The translations under genes were made by a program, and so were the position numbers. Below, piece by piece: positions 3,001 to 54,275 of a DNA stretch of 64,000 bases. The DNA comes from Xestospongia muta (taxonomy: Eukaryota > Porifera > Demospongiae > Haplosclerida > Petrosiidae). The DNA lies in contig OY848920.1 of assembly GCA_963693285.1 (NCBI GenBank), positions 9,162,182-9,226,181 on the forward strand, written 5' to 3'. A model generated the notes under the pieces. The model was given only the letters and a program-made list of their open reading frames with translations. It made no database searches and had not been told where the DNA came from. The first letter of the stretch is position 1, and each line of letters begins with the position of its first letter.

Positions 3001-4957
3001 CTTTACTGTATTTGCTTGATTTTTTTGTGATTCCAAATTTGTCTTTTCATGAACTGTGTCCTAGCTAGTCTAAAAATACTAGAGTATGTAAAAAAGTAAC
3101 ATTATAGACAAAACTATTTACATCAATGATTTATTGTGATTTGTACTGACACAATAATATTATAAAGTGTAACTGATTAAAATGAATAACTTAATAAAGA
3201 AAGGAAAGACAAAATGATATCATGATAACATTGATATTCCAGTATTAGGAACATGTAGTTACTTGTAGTATTATATATCACTACTAAATATAGAGAAGAA
3301 AGATTGTGGATTCTAGTCTAATAACATTAATATCTCTTTACATTTTATTATATATTATGATGTGGTAACAGTTACATAACAATACATGTACAAACAAACA
3401 GTATAATTTGTGTATAAATCTAGCCCCACCCATCACTCATTTCCAACTGATCTCTGTCAGAAGTAATTTGTTGTCATCTAACTATAGCTAAGTATGTACA
3501 TTGGTATATCTGACCACAAGTGGGTGGAGTCAGACAGACTTAGGCTCATAAAAGTAGTAATAACAAGAACATAGTCTACTTCATGGATTATATATAAAAT
3601 GTTACAATAAAGTACAAACATGTTTACATTAATCCCTGGTAAGATAAATCCTTGTATCAGACTCCAGGACTCCATTAAACATGAGCTAGCTTTTATATTT
3701 TATCATCTCAAATGTAATGAGAACAGGATGAACAATCATATTCAAAGAGGAGATGTCTAAATAATTTGTTTGCAGATCCTGTATTAGATCAAAGCAGTTT
3801 ATAGTCACACTCAACTATAAAAACAATGTGGTTTGTCAGGTACAAAACCAATAGGCTAACAGACAATTCCTGTCTAAGCAAAGAGGCTGGCCTCACTGGG
3901 CTAAGTTAATATATGAATACTTGAAACTATTATACAGTAAAGAATGTACCATTGATATAATAGGATTGTTCCTCTGTAGAACATACAAAACCTCAAATTT
4001 AACGGTAAACCACACTTCCTGTAAATCGTTGCCATAGTAACCATAGTCAGTAAACAGTAATGGCTTCCTTTCTTCTTTAGTGTGTTGTCTGTGTATTGTA
4101 GTGTGTTATAGTATATATTACTATGTGTGTACTATAGTATATACTAACTCTGTTTTATAACAGGATACACTGGAAGTGTTCAGTGGAGAGATGATGACAA
4201 TAGTGTATGGCTCAGTAGACCAAGTGTAGTAGAAAGTGAAGATGTTATAAGTAAATTAATAAAAGAACAACAAAAAGGAAAAGAATGGAGTATTAGTCTC
4301 ATCTCATCATCTCCTGAAAGTACTGCAGTTATTATAAACAATCTTAATAAGTGTACAGTGTGGAGTCTTGATATACAGTACACTTCATTGGACAGTAAGT
4401 GTGTATCGATATTATCAGAGATACTAAAAACTAATAAAACAATAAAGACACTATGGCTGGACTCCTCTTCACTTACTGGTGGTATCAAAGAAGTCAGTGA
4501 CAGTCTCTGTAATAATAAAACACTTAAACAGTTAGTGTTGTCTAATGTTACTGGTATCACAGAAAAAGATAGGACTCACTTATCTACTATATTAGCAACT
4601 AATACAACTTTAAAAGTACTAGAACTCCCCAACTGTAACATCACTGATAATGGAGTCCGATATATCTGTGAAGGACTTACCAAAAACCAAACATTGACTA
4701 AGTTGGACATCGGACGTAATCATCAGATCACTTCAGTTAGTACCAGTACAATAGCAGATCTAATACAAACTACTACATCACTGACAAGACTATATCTCGA
4801 CTATACTTTACTGAATAATGATGATATCAAGACAATATGTACATCACTAACTAAAAATATTACAATAAAGAAATTATACTTATCAGGAGAACATAAAGAG
4901 TATTGTAAGAAGTTAGACAGTTATCAAGTTATTAAAGACAGACTTGTGTTCTGGTAA
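53..4957 (+). CDS. DLR1: 3' part of DEATH/coiled-coil/LRR gene (5' end outside window)
   Basis: Five exons join in frame, all through phase-1 introns: 53-148 and 587-670 (charged coiled-coil exons, motif MRQMKEKEVEDLTSQLRDR), 1142-1333 (cysteine/serine linker), 1386-1484 (acidic, ends DDADDEHSDIEG) and 4164-4957 (LRR, about 264 codons, stop TAA). The LRR exon has about eight NLR-type repeats of LxLxxNxITDxG form with TNxTL between strands. The DEATH and CARD-like exons seen in the other copies would lie before position 1. The last intron is 2.7 kb. By analogy with NLR and other LRR sensors the LRR would be the recognition part and the coil an oligomerisation part (inference). The partial gene shows no stop or frameshift. 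AATAAA follows the stop by about 130 bp. Confidence 0.8.
1485..4163 (+). other. long intron of DLR1 before the LRR exon
   Basis: No coding exon is certain here. The sequence is highly similar to the matching introns of DLR2, DLR3 and DLR5, minus a block of about 0.6 kb that DLR2 and DLR5 carry. It contains many CACCC / GGGTGGAGTC boxes. Two acceptor-like sites, near 2313 and 3776, are followed by short in-frame peptides ending in stops (DPALF..., DPVLDQSSL-stop), which could be alternative terminal exons. The two sites lie in an internal direct duplication of about 100 bp. Confidence 0.55.
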
Positions 4958-8858: not shown

Positions 8859-9434
8859 AACCAAACGCTCCAAAAAAGCTCTATACTACTTCTAACGAGT
8901 CAAAGGTTTTTCTCTTCAAAAGATGTCATAACTTCTTTCAGCATCTTCGATCCTATGATAATACCAAACATTACCTCACCTGAATTACTTTCATATGGGG
9001 AGGATTCAATTGAAACTCTTATCGATCACTATACAAAAGACCTCCCTGCAGAAATAGTACAAGGAGTTGAGTTCATCAAAGAAGCTATTATATCTCAAGA
9101 TGTTTGTGCAGAATGGAAAATATATCATCAATTGATTAGTAAACAACCAAAGAACAATCTAAAGTCACAACTAAAAGAGTTAGCCACCAATGAAACATTG
9201 ATAGCATTGTTATCCAATCTGCACAGGCTAGCCACTATCTGTTTGTCTATTCCTGTTGGTATAGCATCGGTTGAAAGATATTTCTCACAAATGAAATTAA
9301 TGAAGAGTCGACTACGAAATCGCACAGGAGAAATTAGCTTATCAAACTTGATGACAATTGCAATGGAATCACCTGAACAACTATCTGATAATGACCTCGA
9401 AAAAATTGTCAGTGTATGGAACAGAAAGAATTGA
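8859..9434 (+). pseudogene. hAT transposase C-terminal fragment (dimerisation domain)
   Basis: The open frame runs from just after a TAG to TGA at 9432-9434. It reads SFSIFDPMIIPN near the start and ends with the typical hAT dimerisation block: LATICLSIPVGIASVERYFS, then MKLMKSRLRNRT and ISLSNLMTIAM. In hAT transposases this block completes the RNase-H-like fold and mediates dimerisation. The BED finger and most of the catalytic region are absent, so it cannot be an active transposase. Sequence upstream in another frame (8817-8990) may be a further decayed piece. Confidence 0.8.
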
Positions 9435-11097: not shown

Positions 11098-14000
11098 ATG
11101 GCTACAAAGGAACTACCTCAAACTCAACATTTAGGTAACGTACAAGACCTGATATAATTGTTAGTCATTTTAATATCTTACTTCTCTCCATTTAGATATT
11201 TCAGATCTTTTAAAAAAGGCTCCCACTAAACATGAACTCCTCAAACTATTAGCTGATATTAGTAACTTGTGGCAGGAGATTGGGTTATCACTCAATGTTT
11301 CTGACAATGTTTTGGAGGGTTTAGAACACAGCCCAAAGAGCAATGCTATCAAACTCTCTGATATCATTCATAGCTGGCTAACCACTACTGAGTCTTCCTG
11401 GGAAACAGTGATTGATGCCATCAAGGGTCCTATTGTTAATCACGTCATAAAGGCTAATGAAATACATCAACATTTAACTAAAGGTAATTGATAGAATAAT
11501 TATTGATACGGTCAATGAATATGTGTTTGTTCCTTAGTGAAGGAACATACTCTCCAAAGTTTTATTGGAGAGATGTCACAGTGTCTGATCAATCCTGTGA
11601 AAGTGTCCCAGCTCTTATTTAGTGAGAAATGTATCAGTGAAGAAACACTTGATAAGATGGAGTCATTGCAAGGTTCTCCAGATGAGAAGAAGACAACTCT
11701 ATTATCTGCTATACATACAGCAATATCTTCAGATCACAAGAAATTCAAAGCGTTAGCTACAGTACTGTCCAAGTTTGAAGAGACAAAAATTCTATCTGAG
11801 AAAATTATCAATGAATATAGTGAGAGAACAATTTCATACTACCTAGCTTAATGGTGGTGTTTTCTTTTTGAATGTCTACAGTTCAGATATATCTAGATGA
11901 CCAGAAGAAGACTGATATTGCTCAAGATATAGGAACAACAAGTCATAATGATCCAATGGATGTTACAGAATCTAAAAATTGGATTACATCTGAGGGCACT
12001 ATTTATAAGGTTATTCTACTATATTTTTCTACTAGATGTTACTATGGTTTCACAGGAATCTAATATGACAAAGTGGGATATGTTAAATCCAAGTGGAAAG
12101 CGAGGACTAGAAGATAAAGAGATATCAGATGAGGACTTAAAAATGAAGAGAGAGAGACGTGATTTGGATCCAACATCTGGTTATAGTGGTACATATATTT
12201 TTTTAATTAAGTGAACTGTGTACATTTTATTTATTATAGTCCATGCCAGTGACATTTTACGCCATCATTATGGTATTCTCTCTCAGTCTCTTCGCTATCC
12301 CATTAGAGTAGCAGAGATCCTCTGTGGAGAGAGGGTTATTTCACCAGAAACATTGTCGACTATGGTAAAATCTCAATCTGAAACAGAAGCAGCATTCATC
12401 TTGCTAAGAGCTATACGTTATGCTGTACATAGTAACTATAGTAACCTGCTAAAATTTGCTAGTGTACTGTTAAAATTTACTAGCAATGTACCATGTGCTA
12501 TTGCTATCTTAGAGGACTATAGTAAGTATACAGGTTATTCTTTGACTGTTAAAAATATTTGATGTAGAGAGACCATTTCTTGAAGATAAAAGTTCAGAAG
12601 TCCAACATGTTATTACTGGAATTAGTGAAGGTATATTTACTGTATTATATTAAGATCATGATATCATTGTGTTAATTAGCTAATTCATTGAGTACTAGAC
12701 CAGGAGCTTTAGTTGATAGCAGTTTAATTTCAAGTCAAGGTTAGTAGTGAGACTATATGAGGGCCTACAATGTTTCTTTCAATTCTAGATGAGGTTGTAA
12801 AGATTCCAATTCCTCAAAAGTTTAAGTCAGTACTTGCAGAAATGAGAATGGAATATGCTATAGCATTCAGTAATATCCGAGAAGCTATCAATGCATCACC
12901 TCCACCTCTGGATAAATTGAAACAGTTTCTTAGAGATGGTTACTCTTACCTCAAATCTCAAATAGCTCATTCTACTTCCATTGATGATGTTCTAGATGTT
13001 GTTAATGATCATTGTACATTGATCGATATCAGTTGTTTAGAGGGTATTGTAACTCGATTCAAAATCAAGGAAGCTGAGGCACATATACAAGCATACAAAA
13101 ATATTGTTCAGTCGTTTCGTGAAAAAACAAAAGCTTCTCTTTGTCTGAATGAAAATTTTAAAGTGACAAACACTCCTTCTCTTCTTATATGTGAGACAGC
13201 AGTCTTTGTCTTGAACTGGGATCCCAACAATTGCACATTAGAAACTATTGAGGATATCCTTTCAGAATCAGTTGAAGGAAATGTACAGATTCATGTCATT
13301 AGAGAGGGCAAGTCCATCATTGTCACCTGCTTTTTTCCACTCAGTCTAACAAATGTACTTATTGCCAGAGCTAAGGAGACACTTGAATCAGTGAAGAAGA
13401 AAGGATTACTCCAACTTACAATTGGTCACTCTACCATTTATGATCATAGAAGAGACAAGGTAAGAGATGAGTAGTATTAGACAAAAGTTACTACATGTGT
13501 TGTTTATTGATATATAGGAGGTTAGAGCTATTGTAAAAGAGAACACAAAGGAGTTGAGAAGTGAACTGGAGGTACACCAAACCATCAGTGAAAACCTGAC
13601 TATGCAAATATCACCTTTTGAAAAGCAAAATGAAGGTATTTGTCCATGTAGTCAATAACCACTATTATAAACTGTCTATTATCCTATTGTGTGTGTGTGT
13701 ACATAATTAAAATTCCTTCTTAACTATATTCATGAGACTATGAATTTGATTTGTAGTTTTTATTTACTATATATAGTACAACTGTTTATAACTCAATATT
13801 TTTACATAGAAATGAGACAAATGAAAGAAAAGGAAGTTGAAGATTTAACATCACAACTTAGAGATAGAGACAAGCAAAATGAGACATTAAAACAGAAGTT
13901 GAAAGGTAATTGATATTAAAAATAATAGATTAGATTAATAATTTAGTGTGGGGTCAAACTAGAAAGAAAAGGTCTACCTCTATCAGACTATCCAGAGCTG

Positions 14001-17000
14001 ATGGCTTTGTTACAGTAGTATGGAGGCCTAGTGAGACAGTCCATGTAAACTTTAGATCTGGTCCACTAAAGGGTCTATAGTGTAAAGTAAATATTAAAAC
14101 AATTTAATATCATTTCTAAAAACCAAGGAAAGTATACTTATTACATGTACAATAGCTATCACTAACACAACCAGTGTCATTTATTTTTATAATTATAGAA
14201 AAAGAAAAGGAAGTTGAAGATTTAACATCACAACTAAGAGATAGAGACAAAGAAATTGAGACATTAAAACAGAAGTTGAAAGGTAATTGGTATTAATAAA
14301 ATAGATTAATAATTTAGTGTCGGGTCAAACGTAACACTAGAAAGAAAGAGACTAACTCTATTAGAAACATGAATTCAACTATATATTCAAAGTAGTTTTA
14401 CTGAATGTTGTAATATTTCACTTTGTACATGTAATTGTTCATGTATTTTATGTAGAATCTTACTATCTTAGAATTATATAGATATTATATTATTGAGTGA
14501 GTGAGTCCAAACAAGTGATAGTGTGATCAGTTTATATAGCCTTACTATTGTGACCAGTTTAGTTACACTGTTGTAGTAATGAGATTCATAGATGACTGTA
14601 TTAGATTCAGTAGAAATAAGCCTGAGGTAAGGTAATGTGGTTTGCTTTGTAAGAAAAACAGCAGATTTAAATTCTAACAGCTGATATAATGGTTTAAATA
14701 CTTTAAATTGAGTAATACACTTACTATAAATTTAGAAGAACTGTGTCTGGGATGTCAAACCAGTGACGTTGACAGTCCTTCAAATACATTGTCACTATTG
14801 TCTATTACTCTTCATTGTATGTTACTAGATTTAGCATTTACTTCAAGGACTCATAAACCATTAACTGATCAAGAAAGTCAAACAAAGTCTAGCCAGGAAG
14901 ATAAGTCCACACCATCTATCATTAAAACTACAGGTAATAATGTAAATTACATTTTATGATTATTTCATATAGTCTACACTATCAGAGTTAAAAGATAAGA
15001 GTTCAGCTGACATTAAAGGTTCAGATATTGAACAGTCAGATTATTATACAGATGATGCAGATGATGAACATTCAGATATAGAAGGTATGTCATATTATAA
15101 ATGTATAATGCTCAGTATCTATCATAACAAGACTACATCATTGGTAAAGTTCCTTGTATGATCAATATCATGGCTACCATCTTGTGGCATACTTTGTAGA
15201 CTTGTCTTTATAATAAACCTCCCACACAGTGGGAAAGGGTTGGTCTCTATAATGATCCCATTTTAAAGTTTTAACTTGATAAAAGGATTTATTGAGCCAC
15301 TATTACTAAAACCTATAGTAGGTTTGTTCACATAACATCTCTCCTAATATATCATACCCTCCATTTGATAAAGTACAAAGTGTCTATTAATGATCATATT
15401 AGAATTTGAAACTGAAACGTATTGCACATTTTAGTATGTGACCTTCTTGTACCTAAAATTGTCATCATCTGTCATGTTATGTGGGTGTGTCCACATAGAT
15501 CTGTTTCCTGTATTAATTATGGTACATACACATGTAGAAGTTTAAAATATCAACAAAATATTTTAGACATCATACCTCATAGTCTTGTCCCAAGACTATC
15601 ATGTTTCCTGACCAAGATACCTTTTTGCTTTGGGGATATAGCAGTCTGGGAATGAGACTAAAGACATTTTAGCAAAATCACATGACTACCTTTTTACTTG
15701 GGGCACATGACAGTCTTCAGATGAGACTACATACCACAAACATACTATAGCCCAACTCACACCATACTGTATACTTATAGTGAGCTATGAGTTATGTCAC
15801 AACCAGTAATGTAATCAAACTCCCAGACTTGATCATAGCATACATATTATATCTGTAATATAATTCTACTTTTAACTAAGTTATCTAAAGATAGCTACCA
15901 GTTCACAATGTTTGTAATGACATGTTTATAATAATATTGTAAGTGTTTCTTGTTATGTTATGAACACTTCAAACAACAATCAGTTAAGTCCCTTAATATA
16001 ACACTAGTGTAGTCTAGGATACTAGCCCCTCCTACTTTTGACAGTCTGCCATACAAGATCCATTGTTTACAGTGTATGTCAACATTAATAATGTACTTTA
16101 TCTCACAGTCTATTATGATAAGTTAATACTTGAGGTATTAGTGTATACATAATATGATGACAATATTATGGGTGGAGTCAATATAAACTATTACAGTTTA
16201 AAACAAGACTGTCTCAACTAGTACCATAGAACATAATGATCATGAGATGTTACTTGTTTGCAAATAAGGAATTTAATATTATGTAAACCTTGGTTAATTA
16301 TATATTATATGTAAATATTAAAAAGTAACATAATCAACCCAGCCCCTTTCTCTTGAGTTAGTTTGTTAGACTACAACATAATGTTTTTATTGAGTTAAAT
16401 CAACATGACTAAATGAAAGTAATTGTAACACAATAAAACAAGAAAGGACAAAGAAGTTCATATTTCATAATGAAACATCTAATGATGTTTGTTTGTAGAT
16501 CCTGCACTTTTCAGCCACACCCACTATAAAAACAATGTGGTTTGTCAGGTACAAGTTCAATAGACTGTGGTTTACCAGGAATGTTAGTGAAAGAGATAAC
16601 TGTACTATATATAGTATGGACTAACTGTCTTCCTCTCTAAGCAAAGGGGCTGGCCTTAAACTGATAACTCATCTTATCTGTAATTACTTCTACTTTTGTT
16701 TATATCTATTAACATGTACTGCTCAGTATAGCTACTGTACTTAACCACACCCACCAAACATTTTTGTAACAACAGACCATTCCTATGTACAACATTAGTA
16801 GGTAGAGAGATACATAATTTCCTCATATGTAACAAACATATCAACTCAATTCTGGACTCAATGAAATAGAATACAATAATGTTATGTTTAGTTGTTATAT
16901 CAACATCAAAATTGACTCAGAAACACATTTTTAAGCATTTTGTGGTCCAAAGCAAAAATCTAGCCACACCCTTTTATTAATATTAATAGACTGTTATAAT

Positions 17001-19160
17001 ATCATTGCCTTCCACTTTCACTTCCTCCTAAGTCACTGTATGTATATGTCATCTGTACATGGGTGGAGTCAGACTTAACTGTTGATAAAGAAAGTTAGTG
17101 ACATATAGGGAGGAGTTAAAAACAATTATAAAAGACAAAATCATTGATATTACAGATATCATTATTCAATAATAGTCTTCTTCTATGTTCTTTACTGTAT
17201 TTGTTTGATTTCTTTTGTGATTCCAAATTTGTCTTTTCATAAACTGTGTCCTAGCTAGTCTAAAAATACTAGAGTATGTAAAAAAGGAACATTATAGACA
17301 AAACTATTTACATCAATGATTTATTGTGATTTGTACTGACACAATAATATTATAAAGTGTAACTGATTAAAATAAATAACTTAGTAAAGAAAGGAAAGAC
17401 AAAATGATATCATGATAACATTGATATTCCAGTATTAGGAACATGTAGTTACTTGTAGTATTCTATATCACTACTAAATGTAGAGAAGAAAGATTATGGA
17501 TTCTAGTCTAATAACATTATTATCTCTTTACATTTTATTATATATTATGATGTGGTAACAGTTACATAACAATACATGTACAAACAAACAGTATAATTTG
17601 TGTATAAATCTAGCCCCACCCATCACTCATTTCCAACTGATCCCTGTCAGAAGTAATTTGTTGTCATCTAACTATAGCTAAGTGTGTACATTGGTATATC
17701 TGACCACAAGTGGGTGGAGTCAGACAGACTTAGGCTCATATAAGGAAAAATAATAAACAAGAACATAGTCTACTTCATGGATTATATTTAAAATGTTACA
17801 ATAAAGTATAAACATGTTTACATTAATCCCTGGTAAGATAAATCCTTGTATCAGACTCCAGGACTCCATTAAACATGAGCTAGCTTTTATATTTTATCAT
17901 CTCAAATGTAATAAGAACAGGATGAATAAACCATATTCAAAGAGGAGACGTCTAAATAATTTGTTTGTAGATCCTGTATTAGATCAAAGCAGTTTATAGT
18001 CACACTCAACTATAAAAACAATGTGGTTTGTCAGGTACAAGTCCAATAGACTACCAGACAATTCCTGTCTAAGCAAAGAGGCTGGCCTCATGAGAGGAAG
18101 TTGATATATCAATACCTGAAATCCATTATACAGTAAAGAATGTACCATTGATTAATATAATAGTATTGTTCCTCTGTAGAACATACAAAACCTCAAATTT
18201 AACGGTAAACCACGCCTCCTGTAAATCGTTGCCATAGTAACCGTAATCTGTAAACACTAATCATGGCTTCCTTTCTTCTTCAGTGTGTTGTTTGTGTATT
18301 GTAGTGTGTTATAGTATATATTACTATGTGTGTACTATAATATATACTAACTCTGTTTTATAACAGGAGACACTGGAAGTGTTCAGTGGTATGATAATAT
18401 CAATAGTGTATGGCTCACTAGACCAAGTGTAGTAGAAAGTGAAGATGTTATAAGTAAATTAATAAAAGAACAACAAACAGGAAAACAATGGAGTATTACT
18501 CTCTCCTCATCATCTCCTGAAAGTACTGCAGTTATTATAAACAATCTTAATAAGTGTACAGTGTGGAAACTTGAGATATTGTACACTTCATTGGACAGTA
18601 AGTGTGTATCGATATTATCAGAGATACTAAAAACTAATAAAACAATAAAGACACTAAAGCTGGTGTCCTCTTCATTTACTGGTGGTATCAAACAAGTCAG
18701 TGATAGTCTCTGTAATAATGAAACACTTGAACAGTTATTGTTGTCTAATGTTACTGGTATCACAGATGAAGATATGACTCACTTATCTACTATGTTAGCA
18801 ACTAATACAACTTTAAAAGAACTACGTCTCACCAAATGTAACATCACTGATAATGGAGTCCGATATATCTGTGAAGGACTTACTAAAAACCAAACATTGA
18901 CTACGTTGAACATTGGAGGTAATCATCAGATCACTTCAGTTAGTACCAGTACAATAGCAGATCTAATACAAACTACTACATCACTGACAGAACTATATCT
19001 CTACAATACTTCACTGAACAATGATGATATCAAGACAATATGTACATCACTAACTAAAAATACTACAATAAGGGAACTTCGTTTATCAAGTCAACATAAG
19101 GAGTATTGTATAAACTTAGACAGTTATCAAGTTATTAAATACAGACTTGTGTTCTGGTAA
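11098..19160 (+). CDS. DLR2: DEATH, two CARD-like, alpha/beta, coiled-coil, LRR protein (~1110 aa)
   Basis: Fifteen exons join in frame: 11098-11134, 11196-11483, 11538-11819, 11882-12009, 12056-12188, 12240-12521, 12568-12630, 12680-12739, 12789-13459, 13518-13635, 13810-13905, 14199-14282, 14736-14933, 14986-15084, 18367-19160. Layout: DEATH domain aa 13-108 (LWQEIGLSLNV, HSWLTTTESSWETVIDAI), death-fold/CARD-like 109-202 and 290-383 (VSQLLFSEKCISEETLDKM; VAEILCGERVISPETLSTM), basic linker about 246-289, conserved module 425-648 (SIDDVLDVVNDHCTLIDIS... TAVFVLNWDP... VTCFFPLSLT), coils 649-747, cysteine/serine linker 748-813, acidic 814-846, LRR 847-1110. Most introns are phase 1. No NACHT or other NTPase motif is present. 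Family knowledge suggests DEATH/CARD folds recruit partner death-fold proteins and LRRs bind ligands; a cytosolic sensor role is inferred. There is no signal peptide. Confidence 0.8.
15085..18366 (+). other. 3.3-kb intron of DLR2 before the LRR exon
   Basis: It opens with donor GTATGTC and closes with acceptor TTTTATAACAG, both kept in other copies. It contains a block (about 15230-15840) that is absent from DLR1 and shortened in DLR3. That block has inverted and direct repeats around AGTCTTGTCCCAAGACTA and GGGGCACATGACAGTCT, suggesting an old mobile insertion. CACCC/GGGTGGAGTC boxes recur. A 61-codon frame at 17814-17999 ends with the in-frame segment DPVLDQSSL after an acceptor TTTGTAG and is a candidate alternative last exon. 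Confidence 0.5.
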
Positions 19161-19287: not shown

Positions 19288-19293
19288 AATAAA
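19288..19293 (+). terminator. polyadenylation signal AATAAA, DLR2
   Basis: Canonical AATAAA about 130 bp after the stop, conserved with 5087, 36190 and 50315. Confidence 0.55.
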
Positions 19294-20131: not shown

Positions 20132-21010
20132 TGAACAAAGTTTATAGTTGCTCTCATTCTAATGTTCTCATAACACAAACAATACAACAATAAAAATATA
20201 TAGTAATGTCGACTTTTTATGTGTTAATTTATTATACTCTAAATATTTGTGAAGTTATAAAAAGAAATTATTTCACACAGTTATACTGATAATTAGAATA
20301 AAACAAAAAATTACATGTACATCAATAAAAGAAAAAAACATTAAATAATACTTACATGTATTTAAACAAATCAATTAAATCAAGAAATACTAAAATTAAA
20401 ATATTAGTATTCAAAAAATTAACAAAGAGAGAAATAAATTATAACCATAGACAATGGTACTAGTACTAACAAACAATATATCTACATTATGATATTATTA
20501 ATATTACATAATGTAATATAATGAAGGATATTGGATACATTAGACAACAATAATAAGTACTGGGCTAAAAGACACATACAAAATTAAAGGAGAGAGACAC
20601 AAGATCACCAATCCACAGACATACATGTACATGTAGACAGTTAATGTATCAAGTATTATAGATATTGAATGGATTTAAAAAGGACCTCTCTCTCTAAATG
20701 GTTGATCACCCTAAATAAAATAATATTAACTCATACCAGCTGTCAACAATATAGTTCATTGTAATATTATCATGTTGTCACAATATCATTGTTACATGTA
20801 CATGTATATTAATATGACATGTGTCTACATCTACTGACACTCATTGATATAATGATCACATGATGATCACATGATCAATTTATATGTCTACGCTTATTGA
20901 TATAATAGTCATGTCATTATCACTTAGTTATGAAGGAGGTCACTATAACATATTAAAATTATAATAAATTGATCGTTATCTCTAGTACATGTCTGTGTGT
21001 ATGTGTTGTC

Positions 21011-21121
21011 ATTATATTGGGTACATTACCTCATTATATTGGGTACATTACCTCATTATATTGGGTACATTACCTCATTATATTGGGTTCATTACCTCAT
21101 TATATTGGGTACATTACCTCA

Positions 21122-21142
<21 letters not shown>
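21011..21142. repeat. 22-bp minisatellite, 6 units
   Basis: Tandem units of ATTATATTGGGTACATTACCTC, one with GGTTCATT. The same array has about 11 units at 38497-38740, 4 units at 51338-51425 and none in copy 1. The unit nearest the kinase supplies the last codons and TAA of the kinase tail read on the - strand. Confidence 0.95.
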
Positions 21143-23981
<2,839 letters not shown>

Positions 23982-24369: not shown

Positions 24370-24878
24370 ATGGCTACAAGAAACCTATCTTTCGAGGCGA
24401 TTCTAGAAGAGAAACCAACACTTGATGAATTATGTGAACATATTCGTATTGGTAGTAAATGGTATCAGTTGGGAGTCCTGCTAAAACTGAATGATGTGAA
24501 GTTAGATAACATTCACAGACTAGCAGAAGATTCTAGTTACAAAACACTAAAAATGTTTAAATTATGGTTAGGTACCAACCCTCATGCTACGAGAAAGCAC
24601 GTTTTGGATGTTTTGAGAAAGGAGGTCATTGAAGAAAACACTATTGCACACGAGTATGAGAAGATTTTAAAAATGTCTTCTAGCTCTGCTGGTGAGTGAA
24701 AGATCTACAATATCTACTATAGTGTGTCATCTCTGTTACAGGAATTGATGTCCAACCTAATGAAACAAATAATACTCATCCAACCTATATTGATACACTG
24801 TCACAAGGTGTGGCCCTTGAGACTAGACTACCAGGCTCTTCTGTACTAGCAAATATAACAAAGGAGCTCCATAATTGA
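24370..24878 (+). CDS. small DEATH-domain protein, copy 2 (152 aa)
   Basis: Two exons join in phase 1: 24370-24691 and 24742-24878, stop TGA. Residues about 10-100 form a DEATH domain: PTLDELCEHI, IGSKWYQLGVLLKLNDVKLD, MFKLWLGTNPHATRKHVLDV, LRKEVIEENTIAHEYEKI. The tail is SSSSAGIDVQPNETNNTHPT and on to LANITKELHN. The ATG at 24370 is chosen because it begins MATRNLSFE, shared by all copies; an upstream in-frame extension to 24289 is not conserved. DEATH domains form homotypic complexes, so a partner could be the DEATH domain of the DLR proteins (inference). Copies 3 and 4 lose the tail through a 5-bp deletion near the end of the domain. Confidence 0.7.
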
Positions 24879-27753: not shown

Positions 27754-30700
27754 ATGGCTACAAAGGAACTACCTCAAACTCAACATCTAGGTAACATACA
27801 AGACCTGATATAAACTGTTAGTCATTTTCATATCTTACTTCTCTTTATTTAGATATTTCAGATCTTTTGAAGAAGGCTCCCACTGAACATGAACTACTCA
27901 ATCTATTAGCTGATATTAGTAACTTGTGGCATGAGGTTGGCTTAAGTCTCAAAGTTCCTCGCAGTATTTTGGATGGTTTAAAACGTAGCCAAGACAGCGA
28001 TCCTATCAAATTCTCTGAAGTCATTCATAGCTGGTTAACTAGTACTGAGTCACATCTTGTTTCCTGGGAAACAGTGATTGCTGCCATCAAGGGTCCTGTT
28101 GTTAATAATAAAAAGAAAGTTAATGAAATACATCAACATTTAACTAAAGGTAAGTTGATATAATATTTATTGATACAGTCAGTGAATATGTGTTTGTTCC
28201 TTAGTGAAGGAAGATACTCTCCAAAGTTTTATTATTAGAGAGATGTCACAGTCTCAAGTCAATCCTGTAAAAGTGTCCCAGCTGTTATTTAGTGAGAGAT
28301 GTATCAGTGAAGAAACACTTGATGAGATGGAGACATTGAAGGGATCAGTAGATGAGAAGAAGACAACTCTGTTATCTGCTATACATACAATATCTTCAGA
28401 TCACAAGCAATTGAAAGTATTAGCTACAGTACTGTCTAAGTTTGAAGAGACAAAAATACTATCTGAAAGAATTATCAGTGAATATGGTAAGTGTCTCACT
28501 CACTACTAACCTAATTGCTTATTTTTCTTAGCTCAAAAGTGTCCATATGACGAGAGGACAGCTGTACAAGAGACAGCAATGACAGGTCATAGTGGTCATC
28601 AATATGAAACTGTTAGTGACTCAATGGAGAGTATAGAATCTGATCCTACAATGATGGACTTGGAATATCAGGTTGATAGCAACGTAACAATATTGTTTAT
28701 AAAGTCAATGTACATGTTGTTTCTTAGCAACCTCATGAGATGACAGAATTAAGTACTTCAAATACAAGAAAGCGACTACGAAAAGACAAAGAGATACCTG
28801 ATGAGGTTTTAAAACCAAAAAAGGAAAAGCTTGATTTGGGAGGATCATCTGATTGTAATGGTATATGAATAATAGTTGATATATACTTAGTGAATTCTGT
28901 TTCATAGAGCAAGCTTCTATGGCCAGTGACATTTTACGTTGTCATTATGGCACTCTCTCTCAATGTCTTAAATATCCTGTTAGGGTAGCACAGTTACTAC
29001 ATGATGAGGGTGTTATTCCTAATGAGGTATTAGGAAATATACAGGATAAGCTGTGTTCTCAATCTGAAGAAAATGCAATAGGTGTCCTGTTACAAGCTAT
29101 ACGTCATGCAGTAAATACCAACTATCATAGTCTGGAGGTCTTTGCTAGTGTACTGTTAAAACAAACTAGCAATGTACCATGTGCTAATGCTATCATACAG
29201 GATTGTCGTGAGTACTGACATAGAATTTACTATTGTTATAAGTCTATTTTAATAGGTAAAGCATTTCCTAACTATGACATACAAGTAGCATATACTGGAA
29301 GTAGTGAAGGAAGTCAAACATTAGGTACTCCTTTGACCACTTTAAGCCAAGGTAAGTACTAGGAGAGATTTAAGCTCCATTTAAATTATTTTTAATGTAT
29401 AGACCAAGTTTTAAAACCTATTCCGATTCCTCGAAAGTTAAACTCAGCATTTGGGTCAATCCGAAAAAAATTTGGAATAGCCTTCAACAAAGTCCGAGAA
29501 GCAATTAATAAAAGTCCTCCACCTCTGGATAAATTGAAACAGTTTCTTAGAGATGGTTACTCTTACCTCAAATCTCAAATAGCTCATTCTGCCTCCATTG
29601 ATGATGTCCTAGATGTTGTTAATGATCATTGTACACTGATCAATATCAGTTGTCTGGAGGGTATTGTGGAGCGATATGATATCAAAGAAGCACAGACACA
29701 TATACAGACATACAAAGATGTTGTTCAGTCATTTTGCAAGGAAACAAAAGCTTCTCTTTGTCTAGAAGAAACTTTAAAAGAAAGTAAAAGTCATTCTCTT
29801 CTCAATTGTGAGACAGCTGTCTTTGTCTTAAACTGGGATCCTAAAGGTTGTACTTTAGAAGATATTGAGGATATTCTTGCTGAATTAGTTGAAGAAAATG
29901 TGCAAATTCGTGTTATAAGAGAGAAGCTGTCTATCAGTGTCACTTGTTTCTTTCCACTCAGTCTAACAACTCTACTTATTGCCAGAGCTCAGGAGACTCT
30001 TGAATCAATGAAGAGGAGAGGATTAATCCAACTTACAATTGGATATTGTACCATTTATGATAAACATCAAAGAGACGAGGTAAGAGATGAGTAGTATTAG
30101 ACAACAGTTACTACATGTGTTGTTTATTGATAGGAGGTTAGAGCTATTGTAGAAGAGAATACAAAGGAGTTGAGAAGTCAGCTAGAGGTACAACAAACCA
30201 TCAGTAAAAAGATGATTATGGAAATATCATCTGTTGAAAATCAAAGTAAAGGTATTTGTCCATGTAGTCAATAACCACTATTAAACTGTCTATTATCCTA
30301 TTGTGTGTGCGTATGTACATACTTTAAATTCCTTCTTAACTATATTCATGAGATTACGAATTTGATTTGTAGTTCTAATTTACTAAATATAGTACAACTG
30401 TTTATAACTCAATATTTTTACATAAAAATGAGACAAATGAAAGAAAAGGAAGTTGAAGATTTAACATCACAACTAAGAGATAGATTAATAATTGAGTGGG
30501 AGATTAAAGGAAACAGTAAAAAGAAAGAGACTAACTCTATTAGAGTGGTTGGAGCTAACATTCTGTTACTCATTAATTTCACAGTAGTATAAAAGTCTAG
30601 TGTGATAGTTTAAGTATCAGACTATATACTTTAACATTTAGTGTTTTAGGTTTAGGAGGTAGAGATCATTATAAATATCCTAATATAGGACTGTCTCACT

Positions 30701-33700: not shown

Positions 33701-36021
33701 CCACACTATACTGTATACTTATAGTGAGCTGTGAGTTATGTCATAACCAGTAATGTAATCAAACTCCCAGACTTGATCATAGCATACATATCATATCTGT
33801 AATATAATTCTACTTTTAACTAAGTTATCTAAAGATAGCTACCAGTTCACAATGTTTGTAATGACATGTTTATAATAATATAGTAAGTGTTTCTTGTTAT
33901 GTTATGAACACTTCAAACAACAATCAGTTAAGTCCCTTAATATAACACTAGTGTAGTCTAGGATACTAGCCCCTCCTACTTTTGACAGTCTGCTATACAA
34001 GATCCATTGTTTACAGTGTATGTCAACATTAATAATGTACTTTCTCTCACAGTCTATTATGATAAGTCAATACTTGAGGTATTAGTGTATACATAATATG
34101 ATGACAATATTATGGGTGGAGTCAATATAAACTATTACAGTTTAAAACAAGACTCTCTCAACTAGTACCATAGAACATAATGATCATGAGATGTTACTTG
34201 TTTGCAAATAAGGAATTTAATATTATGTAAACCTTGGTTAATTTTATTATATGTTAATATTAAAAAGTAACATAATCAACCCAGCCCCTTTCTCTTGAGT
34301 TAGTTTGTAAGACTACAACATAATGTTTATATTGAGTTAAATTAACATGACTAAATGAAAGTAATTGTAACACAATAAAACAAGAAAGGACAAGAAGTCC
34401 ATATTTTAGAATGAAACATCTAATGATGTTTGTTTGTAGATCCTGCACTTTTTTAGATCAAAGTAGTTTTCAGCCACATTCACTAAAAAAATATTGTGGT
34501 TTGCAGTTAGAAGTTCAATAGACTTTCGTTTACCAGGAATACTAGTGAGAGAGACAAGTGTACTCTTCTTCCTCTCTAAGCTAAGGGGTGGGCCTTAACA
34601 GACTATTCATTACTATAATATAACTACAATAAATTCACTCATCTTGATTTGAGTCAAATCAACTGATAACTCATCTTATCAGTAATTACTTCTACTTTTG
34701 TTTATATCTATTAACATGCACTGCTCATCAGTACAGCTACTGCACTTAACCACACCCACCAAACGTTTTTGTGATGACAGAGCATTGCCTATATACAACA
34801 TTAGTAGGTAGAGAGATACATAATTTCCTCATATAACAAACATATCAACTCAATTATGGACTCAGTGAAATAGAATACAATAATGTTTATAATACATACT
34901 ATAAAGACACTGTAGTCTTGTGTCACCTGACATTTCAGTAACATTGGACCACACAAGACAAGACAAATCAGACTGTTCATTTCAGTCTCTATCCCTTTAC
35001 CTAAATAAATTCCATTGACAGGATATTTACAGTATACTAAAATGACAAACTCCACCCTCTATTCCATTGCATCTTCGTACATGTGTTGCCATAGTAACCG
35101 TATTTAGTAAACAGTAATGGATTCCTTTCTCCTTCAGTGTGTAGTCTGTGCATTTGTAGTGTGTTATAGTATATATTACTATGTGTGTACTATACTATAT
35201 ACTAACTCTGTTTTATAACAGGAGACACTGGAAGTGTTCAGTGGGATGATGATGACAATAGTGTTAGACTCACTAGACCAGGTGTAGAAGAAAGTAATGA
35301 TGTTATAAGTAAATTAATAAAAGAACACCTAACAGGAAAAGAATGGAGTATTCGTCTCATCTCATCATCTCCTGAAAGTACTGCAGTTATTATAAACAAT
35401 CTTAATAAGTGTACAGTGTGGAGACTTGAGATATTGAACACTCCATTGGACAGTAAGTGTTTATCGATATTATCAGAGATACTAAAAACTAATAAAACAA
35501 TAAAGAAACTAGTGCTGGTATCCTCTTCACTTACTGGTGGTATCAAACAAGTCAGTGATAGTCTCTGTAATAATGAAACACTTGAGCAGTTAGAGTTGTA
35601 TAATGTTACTGGTATCACAGATGAAGATATGACTCACTTATCTACTATGTTAGCAACTAATACAACTTTAAAAGAACTACGTCACCCCCATTGTAACATC
35701 ACTGATAATGGAGTCCAATATATCTGTGAAGGACTTACTAAAAACCAAACATTGACTTTGTTGGACATCGGAGATAATCGTCAGATCACTTCAGTTAGTA
35801 CCAGTACAATAGCAGATCTAATACAAACTACTACATCACTGACAAGACTATATCTCAACAATACTTCACTGAACAATGATGATATCAAGACAATATGCAC
35901 ATCACTTAATAAAAATGCTACAATACGGAGACTATACTTATCAAGAGAACATGAAGAGTATTTTAAAAAGTTAGACAGTTATCAAGTTATTAAAGACAGA
36001 CTTAACTTCTCCTATTTCTAA
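27754..36021 (+). CDS. DLR3: DEATH, two CARD-like, alpha/beta, expanded coiled-coil, LRR protein (~1234 aa)
   Basis: Seventeen exons join in frame: 27754-27790, 27853-28149, 28205-28486, 28532-28671, 28728-28860, 28908-29207, 29256-29351, 29403-30079, 30134-30251, 30893-31018, 31709-31846, 31991-32053, 32288-32350, 32442-32579, 32913-33110, 33163-33261, 35222-36021. DEATH domain about aa 13-111; CARD-like 112-205 and 297-396; basic NLS-like linker KRLRKDKEIPDEVLKPKKEK about 253-296; conserved module 429-654; coils 655-869; cysteine/serine linker to 935; acidic to 968; LRR 969-1234. The coil has five exons that DLR2 lacks (KESVEKQREIEKQQEIT type). The coil exon equivalent to 13810 is broken here (no AG acceptor, donor deleted) and skipping it keeps frame. 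The C-terminus differs (DRLNFSYF). Confidence 0.78.
30429..30500 (+). pseudogene. broken coiled-coil exon in DLR3
   Basis: Same sequence as the exon at 60233-60328 (MRQMKEKEVEDLTSQLRDR), but the acceptor TACATAG is TACATAA. A deletion joins AGAGATAG to intron sequence TTAATAATTGAGTGGGAG, removing the exon end and the donor. Flanking exons still join in phase 1 without it. Confidence 0.7.
33262..35221 (+). other. 2.0-kb intron of DLR3 before the LRR exon
   Basis: Shorter than in DLR2: part of the 15230-15840 block and about 1.3 kb around the DPVLDQSSL candidate exon are missing. The DPALF candidate exon at about 34441 ends at once in a stop. Confidence 0.5.
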
Positions 36022-37042: not shown

Positions 37043-38496
37043 AGTAGTCCTGAACAGAATATGGTCTATTTTATATTGAGAAGAAATGGAAGATTACAAT
37101 TTAACTATAATACTGAGAAACGTACTTGTATCACATTTTAGACCACCTAAAGAAGTCGGCATGACCTGTCTTATATTCAGAAGAAATGGAAGACTACAAT
37201 TTAACTATAATACTGAGATCAGATCAATTGATCAACAAAATTGATTTTGTTTGTCAACTTCTAAAGTTCAGCAGTAGATATTAATGAGATAGAGAAATTT
37301 GCTCACTCAGGTAGATCTAGTGAATGTTGAGATAATGTTAATGGACAATTCCAACATTCTATGAACAATATTTATATCCTAATATAAAGGAGTCTATATT
37401 GAAGACAAGAGAGGGACAATTAGTAAACTGAATACAATATAGTGTGTGGAGATGAAATACTATGTAAAGTAAGATGAGATATTGAAGACAATTATAACCT
37501 CTCCTGTCTCCTCCCCATATAGCCATTAGCTAGACTAGATATAGAGGTCACTAGTATTGGTCTTACATCAGCTGTAATAGATACTGAACAATTACATTCA
37601 CAGAGTGATCCTAATATAAGTCAATTTTAATGAACAAAGTTTATAGTTGCTCTCATTCTAATGTTCTCACAACACAAACAATACAACAATAACAATATAT
37701 AGTAATGTTGACTTTTATGTGTTAATTTATTATACTCTAAATATTTGTGAAGTTATAAAAAGAAATTATTTCACACAGTTATACTGATAATTAGAATAAA
37801 ACAACAAATTACATGTACATCGATAGAAAAAAACATTAAATAATACTTACGTGTATTTAAACAAATCAATTAAATCAAGAAATAGTAAAATTAAAGTATT
37901 AGTATTCAAAAAATTAGCAAAGATAGAAATAAATTATAACCATAGACAATGGTACTAGTACTAACAAACAATATATCTACATTATGATATTATTAATATT
38001 ACATAATGTAATATAATGAAGGATATTGGATACATTAGACAACAATAATAAGTACTGGGCTAAAAGACACATACAAAATTAAAGGAGAGAGACACAAGAT
38101 CAACAATCCACAGACATACATGTAGACAGTTAATGTATCAAGTATTATAGATATTGAATGGATTTAGAAAGGACCTCTCTCTCTAAACGGTTGATCACCC
38201 TAAATAAAATAATATTAACTCATATCAGCTGTCAACAATATAGTTCATTGTAATATTATCATGCTGTCACGATATCATTGTTACATGTACATGTATATTA
38301 ATATGACATGTGTCTACATCTACTGACACTCATTGATATAATGATCACATGATGATCACATGATCAATTTATATGTCTACACTTATTGATATAATAGTCA
38401 TGTCATTATCAATTAGTTATTAAGGGGGTCACTGTAACATATTAAATTATAATAAATTGATCATTATCTCTAGTACATGTCTATGTGTATGTTGTC
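37043..38496. other. spacer between DLR3 and kinase copy 3
   Basis: Matches 19440-21010. It holds the ATGGAAGACTACAATTTAAC-type repeat (37185) and the PLARL... exon relic at 37523-37630, then AT-rich DNA with no gene seen. Confidence 0.5.
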
Positions 38497-38740
38497 ATTT
38501 TATTGGGTACGTCACCTCATTATATTGGGTACATCACCCCATTATATTGGGTACATTACCTCATTATATTGGGTACATTACCTCATTATATTGGGTACAT
38601 TACCTCTATTATATTGGGTATATTACCTCATTATATTGGGTACATTACCTCATTATATTGGGTACATTACCTCATTACATTGGGTACATTACCTCATTAT
38701 ATTGGGTACATTACCTCATTATATTGGGTACATTACCTCT
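38497..38740. repeat. 22-bp minisatellite, about 11 units
   Basis: Same unit as 21011-21142 (ATTATATTGGGTACATTACCTC), with point variants. It opens long spurious frames in all three + phases. Confidence 0.95.
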
Positions 38741-40663
38741 ATTAAGTTTTCATCACTATTCATTCCAGTATGATTCTGATGTGAGTCATGTTCTTCTTTT
38801 CTATGGAGACTACCTCTCCGTCGGAAACTGTTACGAATTCGCATACTACCCTGACGAGCTAGATGTACAATACCTATATAATGGACGAATAAAAAAAAGA
38901 ATGGATAAATAGTTTAGTGATAGACAAATAAAAGGACTAAATGGAAGGAAAATGGATAAATGGATACATGTATGAGTACATGAATTTATGGACAAATGGA
39001 TGAGGAAAATGGACAGATGGAGTTATAGATGGACAGATATGAGTTGATAGATGAATAAATGGTATTACCCGATCGTACAGATGATGTTCTTGAAGGTCTA
39101 GAGTTTCTTCGTTGTAGGACCTCTTCTAAATCTTCATCATCATCATCAGAATAATAACTATCTCTTTTATTGTTTACATGTTCTAAGAATGATGCTATAA
39201 CATCTACTATTTGTGCAAAGTGAGGTCGCTCACTGGCATACCTCTTCCAACACATCATCATGAGTTTGTATCTACAAATAATAGAATTAACAACTATAAT
39301 ATTAGAACTAAGTCAGTCAGAATATCTATATATCATCCACTTTGCTATTCATTCATTCAATATCTAGTCATACATATACTGGTATCATCTAATGGTCAAT
39401 GGATTTATTAATACATTCATCTATTGATCCATTCATTCATCCATTGATCCATTGAATTATTTATCTGTCCATTCATCTGTCTCATATCAAAACATTCATC
39501 CATTAGTTTATTGATCCATCCATACATCCATCTGTCCATCCATTCAACATACAATCTTCCTGGACAGTTCTCTGGTTTATCTAATCTTCCTCCTCTCATT
39601 ACAAACTGGAGAACCTCTTGGTTTATTCTACCAGGATATGGTTGATTACCAAATGTCATAATCTCCCACAGAAGTACTCCATAAGACCTTTACAATAGTG
39701 ATATCTTTACAGTAACCATGTCAACCTTCACTTACCAAATATCTGACTCAATTGTGAACTTCCCTTGAAGGAGAGCCTCTGGTGCCATCCATCATACTGG
39801 TAACTTCCTCTGTCCTTCCACCTACACAATGCAAAGATATAAAAAACAGTCTCTCCCTCTCCCTCCCTCCCCCCCCCCCTCTCTCTAACTTGGTACTAGT
39901 CTTGGCTATACAGATCTTTAGCAAGACCAAAGTCACCAATCTTTACAACACGATCTGCTCCTTTACTTGACACAAGACAATTGCGTGCAGCAAGATCTCT
40001 GTGAATAAAATGTTGCTGCTCCAAGTATCGACAACCTTGAGCAACATCTAATGCTATCTGAACAAGTTCTGCTAAAGTCAATAATGCAGGACCCTATAAA
40101 AGGAATGAATGGATGGATAAATAGTTATATGGATGAATGGTATGTGAATGGATGAATGGATAGACAGTCAAATGGACATTAAGATAGATGAATGGACAGA
40201 TAGACAAGTGAGTAGATTAAAGAATGAATTGATAGATAAGTTTTAAAAGACTATACAATCAGATCAAGTGACTTTATTTATCATGTGACACTCACATGTT
40301 CTCGTTTAGCTTCTCTTAGGAATTTCAATAAGTCACCCCCTGGCATTAATTCCATAATGATATAAATAGGATCGTTATCAAGACACACCCCTAACACCTT
40401 AACAATTTTTTGATGATTGAAATTACTGTAATTGAAGGAAATGAACTGATAAAATATAAATAATATATGATTACCTCATTAGAGCTGCTTCTGACAGGAA
40501 CTTCCTCTGTTCTTCAGTTGTACTGCCCTTCTTCAGTGTCTTAACAGCCACAGGGGTGGGGCCTGTACCTTAATCTAGGATATCTACAGCTGTACCTTGG
40601 TATACTTCACCAAATTCACCTCGATCAATAAAGCTGAAGGGGGAGAGAGAGAGAGAGAGAGAG

Positions 40664-42092: not shown

Positions 42093-42401
42093 ATGGCTAC
42101 AAGAAACCTATCTTTCGAGGAGATTCTAGAAGAGAAACCAACACTTGATAAATTATGTGAACATATTCGTATTGGTAGTAAATGGTATCAGTTGGGAGTC
42201 CTGCTAAAACTAAATGATGTGAAGTTAGATGACATTTACAGACTAGCAGAGGATTCTACTTACAAAACATTAAAAATGTTTAAATTGTGGTTAGGTACCA
42301 ACCCTAATGCTACGAGAAAGCGCGTTTTGGATGTTTTGAGAAAGGAGGTTATTGAAGAAAACACTATTGCACACGAGTATGAGAAGATTAATGTCTTCTA
42401 G
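42093..42401 (+). CDS. small DEATH-domain protein, copy 3 (102 aa, tail lost)
   Basis: From ATG 42093 the frame reads MATRNLSFEEILEEKPTLD through the DEATH domain and stops at EYEKINVF-TAG. Compared with 24370-24878, 5 bp are missing just before this point, moving the exon end out of frame. The second exon (about 42462-42597) is still open but no longer reachable in frame. The domain itself is intact, so a stand-alone DEATH domain could be made. The overlapping upstream ATG at 42086 is in another frame and might reduce translation. Confidence 0.6.
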   Translation: MATRNLSFEEILEEKPTLDKLCEHIRIGSKWYQLGVLLKLNDVKLDDIYRLAEDSTYKTLKMFKLWLGTNPNATRKRVLDVLRKEVIEENTIAHEYEKINVF

Positions 42402-48300: not shown

Positions 48301-50187
48301 ACATTAAAACAGAAGTTGAAAGGTAATTGGTATTAATAAAATAGATTAAAAATTTAATGTCGGGTCAAAGGAAACACTAGAAAGAAAGAGACTAACTCTA
48401 TTAGAAACATAAATTCTATATCAACTATGTATTCAAAGTAGTTTTACTGAATGTTGTAATATTTCACTTTGTACATGTAATTGTTCATGTATTTTATGTA
48501 GAATCTTATTATCTTTTTTTATGTAGATATTATATTATTGGGTGAGTGAGTCCAAACAAGTGATAGTGTGATCAGTTTATATAGCCTTACTATTGTGACC
48601 AGGTTTAGTTACACTGTTGTAGTAATAAGATTCATAGTGACTGTATTGGATTCAGTAGAAATAAATAAGTTAAAAAACATGTTTCCTGAGGTAAGGTAAT
48701 GTGGTTTGCTTTGTAAGAAAAACAGCGGATTTACATTCTAACAGCTGATACAATGGTTTAAATACTTTAAATTGAGAAATGCACTTACTATAAATTTAGA
48801 AGAGCTATATCTAGGATGTCAAACCAGTAAATAAAGTACAAACATGTTTACATTAATCCCTGGTAAGATAAATTCTTGTATCAGACTCCAGGACTCCATT
48901 AAACATGAGCTAGCTTTTATATTTTATCATCTCAAATGTAATGAGAACAGAATGAACAAACCATATTCAAAGAGGATATGTCTAAATAATTTGTTTGCAG
49001 ATCCTGTATTAGATCAAAGCAGTTTATAGTCACACTCAACTATAAAAACAATGTGGTTTGTCAGGTACAAGTCCAATAGGCTAACAGACAATTCCTGTCT
49101 AAGCAAAGAGGCTGGCCTCACAGGGCTAAGTTAATATATGAATACATGAAATCTATTATACAGTAAAGAATGTACCATTGATTAATATAATAGGATTGTT
49201 CCTCCGTAGAACATACAAAACCTCAAATTTAACGGTAAACCACGCCTCCTGTAAATCGTTTTAATAGTAACCATGTTCAGTAAACAGTAATGGCTTCCTT
49301 TCTTCTTCAGTGTGTTGTCTGTGTATTGTAGTGTGTTATAGTATATATTACTATGTGTGTACTATACTATATACTAACTCTGTTTTACAACAGGAGACAC
49401 TGGCAGTGTTCGGTGGAATGATTATGACAATAGTGTATGGCTCACTAGACAAAGTGTAGTACAAAGTGAAGATGTTATAAGTAAATTAATAAAAGAACAA
49501 CAAACAGGAAAAGAATGGAGTATTGATCTCATCTCATCATCTCCTGAAAGTACTGCAGTTATTATAAACAATCTTAATAAGTGTACAGTGAGGAGACTTA
49601 ATATAGAGAACACTTCATTGGACAGTAAGTGTGTATCAATATTATCAGAGATACTAAAAACTAATAAAACAATAAAGAGACTAATGCTGTTCTCCTCTTC
49701 ACTTACTGGTGGTATTAAACAAGTCAGTGATAGTCTCTGTAATAATGAAACACTTGAACAGTTAGTGTTGTCTAATGTTACTGGTATCACAGATGAAGAT
49801 ATGACTCACTTATCTACTATATTAGCAACTAATACAACTTTAAAAGAACTATGTCTCTCCAACTGTAACATCACTGATAATGGAGTCCGATATATCTGTG
49901 AAGGACTTACTAAAAACCACACATTGACTACGTTGAACATCGGACGTAATCGTCAGATCAGTTCAGTTAGTACCCGTACAATAGTAGATCTAATACAAAC
50001 TACTACATCACTGACAAGACTAGATCTCTACGATACTTCACTGAACAATGATGATATCAACACAATATGCACACCACTTAATAATAATACTACAATAAGG
50101 ATACTATGCTTATCAAGAGAACATGAAGAGTATTGTAAGAAGTTAGAGAGTTATCAAGTTTTTAAAGACAGACTTGTGTTCGTGTAA
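45374..50187 (+). CDS. DLR4: shortened DEATH/CARD-like/coiled-coil/LRR protein (~937 aa)
   Basis: Exons: 45374-45410, 45473-45769, 45825-46106, 46154-46513, 46562-46627, 46679-47355, 47409-47529, 47704-47799, 48239-48322, 49394-50187. DEATH about aa 13-111, CARD-like 112-205 and about 230-325, conserved module 348-573, coils to 673, LRR 674-937. Exons 4 and 6 of the other copies are fused into one (46154-46513): exon 5 with the basic linker and both introns are gone, in frame. A deletion removes most of the cysteine/serine exon and the whole acidic exon. The remaining start (48800, after TTTAG) would hit TAA within 12 codons, so I skip it, which keeps the frame because all these introns are phase 1. 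The intron before the LRR exon shrinks to about 1.07 kb. Confidence 0.75.
48800..48829 (+). pseudogene. truncated cysteine/serine linker exon in DLR4
   Basis: Matches the first codons of the exon at 1142 (EELYLGCQTS), then jumps at CAAACCAGT to sequence that lies about 2.4 kb further on in DLR1. The fusion creates AAA TAA. It marks the deletion breakpoint. Confidence 0.75.
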
Positions 50188-51337: not shown

Positions 51338-51404
51338 ATTACATTGGGTACATTACCTCATTATATTGGGTACATCACCTCATTACATTGGGTACATTAC
51401 CTCA

Positions 51405-51425
<21 letters not shown>
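51338..51425. repeat. 22-bp minisatellite, 4 units
   Basis: Same unit as in copies 2 and 3. Confidence 0.95.

Positions 51426-54275
<2,850 letters not shown>

Follow-up and report, generated by a model that had tools for sequence, protein, structure and literature searches.

The leucine-rich repeat (LRR) exon at 18367..19160 on the forward strand of the window (the whole 64,000-nucleotide stretch analysed here, C4:9162182-9226181, from a 158 Mb, 28-contig assembly of the sponge Xestospongia muta) is likely the terminal sensor exon of a family of Death-domain receptors without a detected NACHT domain, shuffled by short exchanges and diversified by selection. It encodes a C-terminal LRR that probably binds ligand, the receptors themselves are probably germline-encoded and intracellular, and we infer a role for them in recognition and immunity. 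That the scaffold stays the same while almost every copy presents its own binding surface is as expected if the exon belongs to a large, inherited repertoire of recognition receptors.

A large family of LRR exons

Four LRR exons lie on the forward strand of the window, each with an AG acceptor just 5', a start in phase 1 and a stop codon at its end. Copy 2, our main subject, which as read here is the last exon of its receptor gene, has an open frame, an acceptor, an LRR_6 match above the Pfam cut-off and an AlphaFold model with a pLDDT of 95.9; copies 1 (4164..4957) and 4 (49394..50187) are identified by open frame, Pfam scan and translation, and copy 3 (35222..36021) by its open frame and translation, with LRR_6 under the Pfam cut-off (19.8 of 23.4 bits). 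A first-pass annotation had placed four open exons at these coordinates, as our frame check confirmed, and the residues it cited are those found in the translations. Its reading of the exons as part of an array was likewise right, since a six-frame search scored at least 145 genomic matches among 556 first-look candidates, 128 of the 145 lying on C4 (hand count), on both strands, and one containing an internal stop.

The copies analysed are the best-scoring 72 of the 145 matches to copy 2, i.e. those nearest to it, and include the four window copies; L001 and L018 were dropped as the same loci as window copies 2 and 1, and one copy with a stop (L051) was left out, giving 71 codon-aligned exons. 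Before the linkage analysis and the site models the near-identical L038, L054, L055 and L060 were also removed, leaving 67. The sample represents one assembly of one individual, and pairwise comparisons within it are not independent. All analysed copies are complete exons in the genome, with the AG acceptor at the same place in 71 of 71; pairs of copies share a median of 84% of residues and 92% of nucleotides. Eight public proteins, possibly derived from the same assembly, match a copy at 100% over 199-263 amino acids. Searched with silicatein, the genome gave 67 matches, of which the two of full length are 50% and 47% identical to the query and short exons reach 71%; two patterns for the active site had no match. 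On C7 the matches are spaced by about 102-103 kb (1.94, 2.04 and 2.15 Mb) and on C12 by about 163 kb (2.96-2.98 and 3.13-3.14 Mb), which suggests recent segmental duplications; the C12 pair L049/L054 is near-identical.

Variation is concentrated at concave strand positions

The AlphaFold2 model of the exon product (41 sequences; pLDDT 95.9, pTM 0.92) has strands at residues 5-8, 13-17, 41-46, 65-71, 95-99, 122-126, 151-155, 179-181, 208-210, 236-239 and 260-262. Its ten best fold matches, which include NLRP3 and ribonuclease inhibitor, have query-normalised TM scores of 0.66-0.81 at 17-22% identity. The model thus predicts a C-terminal LRR of the ribonuclease-inhibitor type, a feature shared with NLRs; the LRR domains of ribonuclease inhibitor and the NLRPs have the same fold, in a comparison that covers fold only.

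We defined as concave the positions 3, 5, 7 and 8 of LxxLxLxxN in eight repeats, 32 of the 263 codons (12%), the register of the first repeat having been moved by one residue after inspection of the data (the earlier register gave a concave pN/pS of 3.05). Among the four window copies, 76 of the 263 positions vary, comprising 25 of the 32 concave and 51 of the 231 other positions (Fisher p = 8e-10), and three or more residues occur at 18 concave and 4 other positions. The claim that variation sits at exposed strand positions is therefore borne out, and becomes sharper with 71 copies, where five or more residues are found at 27 of 32 concave against 22 of 231 other positions and none of 100,000 random 32-codon sets reached the concave nonsynonymous load. 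With the mask shifted by one residue the mean load, 0.854 in register, fell to 0.304 or 0.188; a shift of two partly restored it (0.472 and 0.578) because exposed positions alternate. Concave codons carry 0.500 of the nonsynonymous but 0.196 of the synonymous differences. The framework leucine codons, which the annotation had described as unchanged, are nearly so, the exception being a histidine at core position 154 of copy 3.

The annotation had also proposed mapping selected sites on an AlphaFold model, and there the hypervariable concave sites fall on or beside strands, alternating with core residues, so that across the 71 copies the variable codons are clustered on strands and not evenly scattered. 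This alternation, together with the ribonuclease-inhibitor fold, suggests that the concave sites are exposed. Some non-concave variable sites also lie on model strands, at 6, 8, 13 and 15 in the N-terminal hairpin and at 261 near the C-terminus. The most variable concave codons have 14-16 states, the 71 copies present 69 distinct concave surfaces, and positions 3, 5 and 7 are enriched in Tyr (0.127 vs 0.019), Arg (0.097 vs 0.030) and Trp (0.043 vs 0.014). When 34 divergent public proteins were pooled, entropy was 1.88 at concave positions vs 0.73, a level reached by none of 20,000 random sets.

Evidence for diversifying selection on the concave codons

In the 71 copies, concave codons have a pN of 0.364 and a pS of 0.106, compared with 0.051 and 0.058 for the rest. 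Relative to the exon-wide pS of 0.063, concave pN is 5.8-fold higher (95% bootstrap over codons 4.6-7.3), and the corresponding ratio for the remaining codons is 0.81 (0.60-1.08). Being tree-free, these pairwise statistics are less exposed than tree models to exchange between copies. We also fitted a site model to the 67 copies, a home-made grid with kappa fixed at 2.5 rather than codeml or HyPhy, which gave Pr(beta>alpha)>0.95 at 48 of 263 codons with one tree (27 of the 32 concave codons among them), at 38 codons with separate trees for nine segments (23 of 32 concave) and at 55 codons with a star tree (28 concave). The non-concave sites found with the segment trees include positions 6, 8, 11, 13 and 15 in the N-terminal hairpin region and 244, 245, 249, 261 and 263 in the C-terminal region. 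With dN/dS well above 1 at strand sites in both the pairwise pN/pS and the home-made site model, the diversifying selection that the annotation had suspected is supported. In the window, pN/pS is 1.27-1.77 for the LRR exons and 0.29-1.11 for the other exons of the receptor genes.

Mean diversity at the three codon bases is 0.411, 0.344 and 0.155 in concave codons and about 0.05 each elsewhere. Among differences confined to the third base, 61% are nonsynonymous in concave codons (38% expected under uniform mutation), as opposed to 25% elsewhere (36% expected). Faster mutation alone would also change third bases silently, and their bias towards residue changes favours selection, which is thus a simpler cause of the concave diversity than a mutation hotspot.

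The LRR exon has a history of its own

For 23 genes (20 hand-picked, 3 from the window) the LRR exon was paired by position with the exon that we call the middle exon, giving 253 pairs. Where the middle exons are less than 55% identical (132 pairs, pS 0.550), the LRR exons have a pS of 0.056 and an identity of 0.836; where their identity is 80% or more (41 pairs, pS 0.170), the LRR values are practically the same (0.053 and 0.844). No correlation between the two sets of distances was detected across the 23 genes (Mantel r 0.10; 1147 of 5000 permutations as high), and the pair L003/L009, with middle exons 99.5% identical, nevertheless has an LRR pN of 0.080 and pS of 0.014. The LRR exon and the middle exon of the same genes thus have different histories: copies of the LRR exon have been homogenised at silent sites and shuffled among genes, a point that the annotation had missed, and simple divergence of paralogs is therefore not the whole story. 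Over 2485 pairs, the aligned block continues for 140-191 bp on the 5' side of the exon and 169-256 bp on the 3' side (interquartile ranges). Helical exon 2 is 95% identical between two window genes whose middle exons are 71% identical, so the LRR exon is not alone in being mosaic. An interpretation of the introns as saturated, suggested by the 71-copy intron alignment, was dropped; compared pairwise, introns are mosaic and align in blocks.

Within the LRR exon, sites are near linkage equilibrium. Across 97 informative sites in the 67 copies, mean r2 is about 0.02 in all distance classes beyond 10 bp (1/n = 0.015), all four combinations are present in 85-95% of site pairs more than 10 bp apart, and 13 silent sites with the minor allele in at least 5 of the 67 copies are likewise unlinked. 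Closer sites are somewhat more associated: r2 is 0.063 up to 10 bp, and a weak excess is seen up to 30 bp (0.0285 vs 0.0230; 46 of 2000 permutations as high). Concave codons of the same strand occur in nearly as many distinct combinations as when shuffled, five of the eight strands being within two SD and strands 1, 6 and 7 having fewer. Ten of the 71 copies have a nearest neighbour at 0-5 of the 32 concave residues, and the other 61 have none closer than 11. Distance between LRR exons is flat over physical distance to 2 Mb and rises slightly beyond (67 copies on C4); three copies on other contigs lie at similar or slightly larger distances.

The receptor gene upstream of the LRR exon

The upstream exons, all on the forward strand, are described here for the gene of copy 3. 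A putative first coding exon (MATKELPQTQHL, 27754..27790), located by eye from a start codon and splice sites, is followed by a Death-fold exon at 27853..28149 (homologous frames at 11198-11482, 45475-45768 and 57660-57953). The predicted model of the latter (pLDDT 95.8) and its fold comparison point to a six-helix Death fold, with Death domains as the best folds and a Foldseek E-value for the Death match of 0.6 or worse; the assignment draws also on hhalign with a neighbouring Pfam Death domain. Sequence searches of the PDB with this exon gave no match, and those with its profile a single one at E 0.49. Next come helical exon 1 (28205..28486), perhaps CARD-like, and helical exon 2 (28908..29207), the two sharing about 35% identity, and then the middle exon (29403..30079), which has no Pfam family above the cut-off, at least 150 matches in the genome and homologous frames at 12788-13444, 46678-47343 and 59204-59866. 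A putative acidic exon 5' of LRR exon 2 (14986..15084, phase 1 join) was placed by eye, with some uncertainty in the choice of acceptor. Joined in this way, the gene order would be Death fold, two related helical exons, middle exon, coiled-coil exons and LRR exon, and the LRR receptor would carry an N-terminal signalling domain of the Death superfamily.

A search for NACHT gave 98 matches genome-wide (102 of 155 first-look candidates scored), none of them in the window or on C4 beyond 8.38 Mb, in a search that a NACHT domain split by introns could escape. With a Death-fold N-terminus and no detected NACHT, which the annotation had also missed, the receptors fall outside the NLRs as strictly defined. 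Three of the units have been duplicated together with a separate gene that has a Pfam Death domain (24370-24690, 42093-42389 and 54688-54984, with following exons); its tail carries YVCLRPP and YVYM tyrosine motifs, and it may be an adaptor.

Tempo of concave change and possible explanations

In 181 pairs of copies 700 bp or more of intron can be aligned, and in 23 of these pairs the introns are no more than 2.2% apart; concave pN is 0.24-0.46 in 20 of the 23, about the level of random copies, and the exons are near-identical in 3. In the class with introns 1-2% apart (13 pairs, one near-identical) concave pN is 0.349, some 20 times the intron difference, at an exon pS of 0.0275. Without near-identical pairs (12 pairs) it is 0.378, or 1.04 of the family level, when silent sites stand at 0.45 of theirs in interleaved core codons, 0.26 within two codons and 0.46 far away. 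Nine disjoint pairs gave 1.01 for concave pN and 0.61, 0.39 and 0.58 for the same silent classes, and 43 pairs with introns less than 3% apart gave 1.05 and 0.76, 0.49 and 0.60, in sets of recent pairs that overlap in copies and whose introns may themselves be exchanged. Since concave pN in recent pairs is at the family level and nearby silent sites are below it, plain conversion is not the whole account. Among concave codon differences between copies with introns up to 4% apart, 2136 of 2404 have both states elsewhere in the family; exchange can thus be a source of some of the change, with selection necessarily favouring change at these codons.

In the explanation that we favour, frequent short exchanges (gene conversion) among copies would homogenise the framework and reassort concave codons, and selection for diversity of binding would retain and spread new concave residues. 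A ligand on the concave face would be signalled via the Death domain, and the signalling end would evolve conventionally while the sensor exon shuffles. Given the near-free assortment of concave codons within one strand, exchange would need very short tracts. One could instead suppose point mutation with exceptionally strong diversifying selection and no exchange, the linkage equilibrium arising from recurrent parallel substitution, and it is true that concave pN saturates before the interleaved silent sites, that the top concave codons reach 14-16 states, and that a narrow choice of permitted codons would likewise lead to shared states. This would, however, require about 20 times the intron rate, the 13 silent sites are unlinked as well, and an exon pS of about 0.05 against 0.55 for the middle exon of the same genes calls for homogenisation, so that we consider this explanation unlikely.

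Less probable again, in our view, is a targeted mutator or template-directed process acting on concave codons in germline or soma, with selection minor. The very fast concave change at introns 1-2% apart and the gap in nearest-neighbour distances would suit it, but base 3 changes mainly where the residue is altered, the core leucine codons between concave codons lack the excess, and the LRR copies themselves yielded no diversifying template, enzyme or donor array. That the pattern was created by relaxed constraint, or by mis-assembly of near-identical repeats, seems to us barely credible. Constraint is usually weaker at exposed positions, and the family is highly repetitive, yet neutral drift cannot give a pN 3.4 times the pS of the same codons or 5.8 times that of the exon, and against mis-assembly stand the 10.6 Mb length of contig C4 and the eight fully identical public proteins, which may come from the same assembly.

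A bolder possibility, which we put forward tentatively and on balance doubt, is that the LRR exon constitutes a freely recombining gene pool within one genome, its concave codons reassorting nearly independently among dozens to more than 100 genes over up to 2 Mb through a dedicated or targeted process of exchange or diversification. If so, it would serve to generate a germline repertoire in an animal that lacks immunity of the lymphocyte type.

Comparison with known systems

The zebrafish NLR-B30.2 family (PMC4852459) comprises hundreds of genes, mostly on one chromosome arm, with a recognition exon that is positively selected and exchanged across groups and another domain that keeps the groups apart. 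The sponge family shows the same mode of evolution, an exchanged and selected recognition exon next to conserved domains, a likeness of mode and not homology: there a B30.2 recognition module goes with NACHT, whereas here the module is an LRR and NACHT was not detected. Concerted repeat exchange and positive selection at few interaction-surface residues are described for the fungal het-d/het-e WD-repeat genes (PMC1805685), with variable numbers of repeats in about ten genes, compared with one fixed-length LRR exon in more than 100 genes here. Variable residues cluster on LRR surfaces in highly variable plant NLRs (PMC8226289), and RPP8 combines intergenic gene conversion with balancing selection (PMC6771003); those systems are allelic or of few loci and have nucleotide-binding domains, unlike the paralog diversity within one genome seen here. 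In brown algal ROCO genes (PMC11378527), LRR exons are shuffled and under diversifying selection, with one exon per LRR motif instead of the whole LRR in one exon. Variable lymphocyte receptors assemble LRR modules somatically; in the single assembly studied here, each analysed copy is already a complete genomic exon.

Sponge NLRs, e.g. those of Dysidea avara, form large families combining Death or CARD with LRRs (PMC12909245); that survey was keyed on NACHT plus LRR, and the terms 'gene conversion' and 'positive selection' are absent from its main text. We came across no account, in the open-licence literature searched, of near codon-level reassortment in an LRR sensor exon that belongs to a Death-domain receptor lacking NACHT. 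Our results suggest that NACHT-keyed surveys can miss large recognition repertoires. The family provides a natural case, one exon of near-fixed length in more than 100 copies with scaffold, silent sites and flanks as internal controls for the varying surface, and makes testable how a germline builds receptor diversity without somatic rearrangement.

Flanking block and other elements

A block of about 140 bp 5' of the LRR exons is as conserved as the exon, although it is intronic in the gene as read. Before LRR exon 2 (18228..18366, forward strand) it contains the motif GTTGCCATAGTAAC at 18228-18241, which we take to be like an RFX X-box, TACTAAC at 18345-18351, presumably branch-site-like, and the AG acceptor. 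The X-box-like motif is present with at most two mismatches in 65 of 71 copies and exactly in 43 (shuffled motifs, mean 0.015), and TACTAAC in 68 of 71. The block could be an internal promoter; as a signal-peptide first exon it was rejected, since inspection of the block by eye found no GT donor joining its ATG in frame to the LRR exon without a stop. A polyadenylation-like AATAAA follows LRR exon 2 at 19288..19293 on the forward strand, and in 60 of 71 copies the signal occurs within 250 bp 3' of the stop. A frame at 8859-9434, between LRR copies 1 and 2, matches the hAT transposase dimerisation region (PF05699, 26.7 bits, above the cut-off), and a 22-bp tandem repeat (TCATTATATTGGGTACATTACC) is found at 21009-21147, 38495-38744 and 51336-51430 with copy numbers of 6.3, 11.3 and 4.3, respectively.
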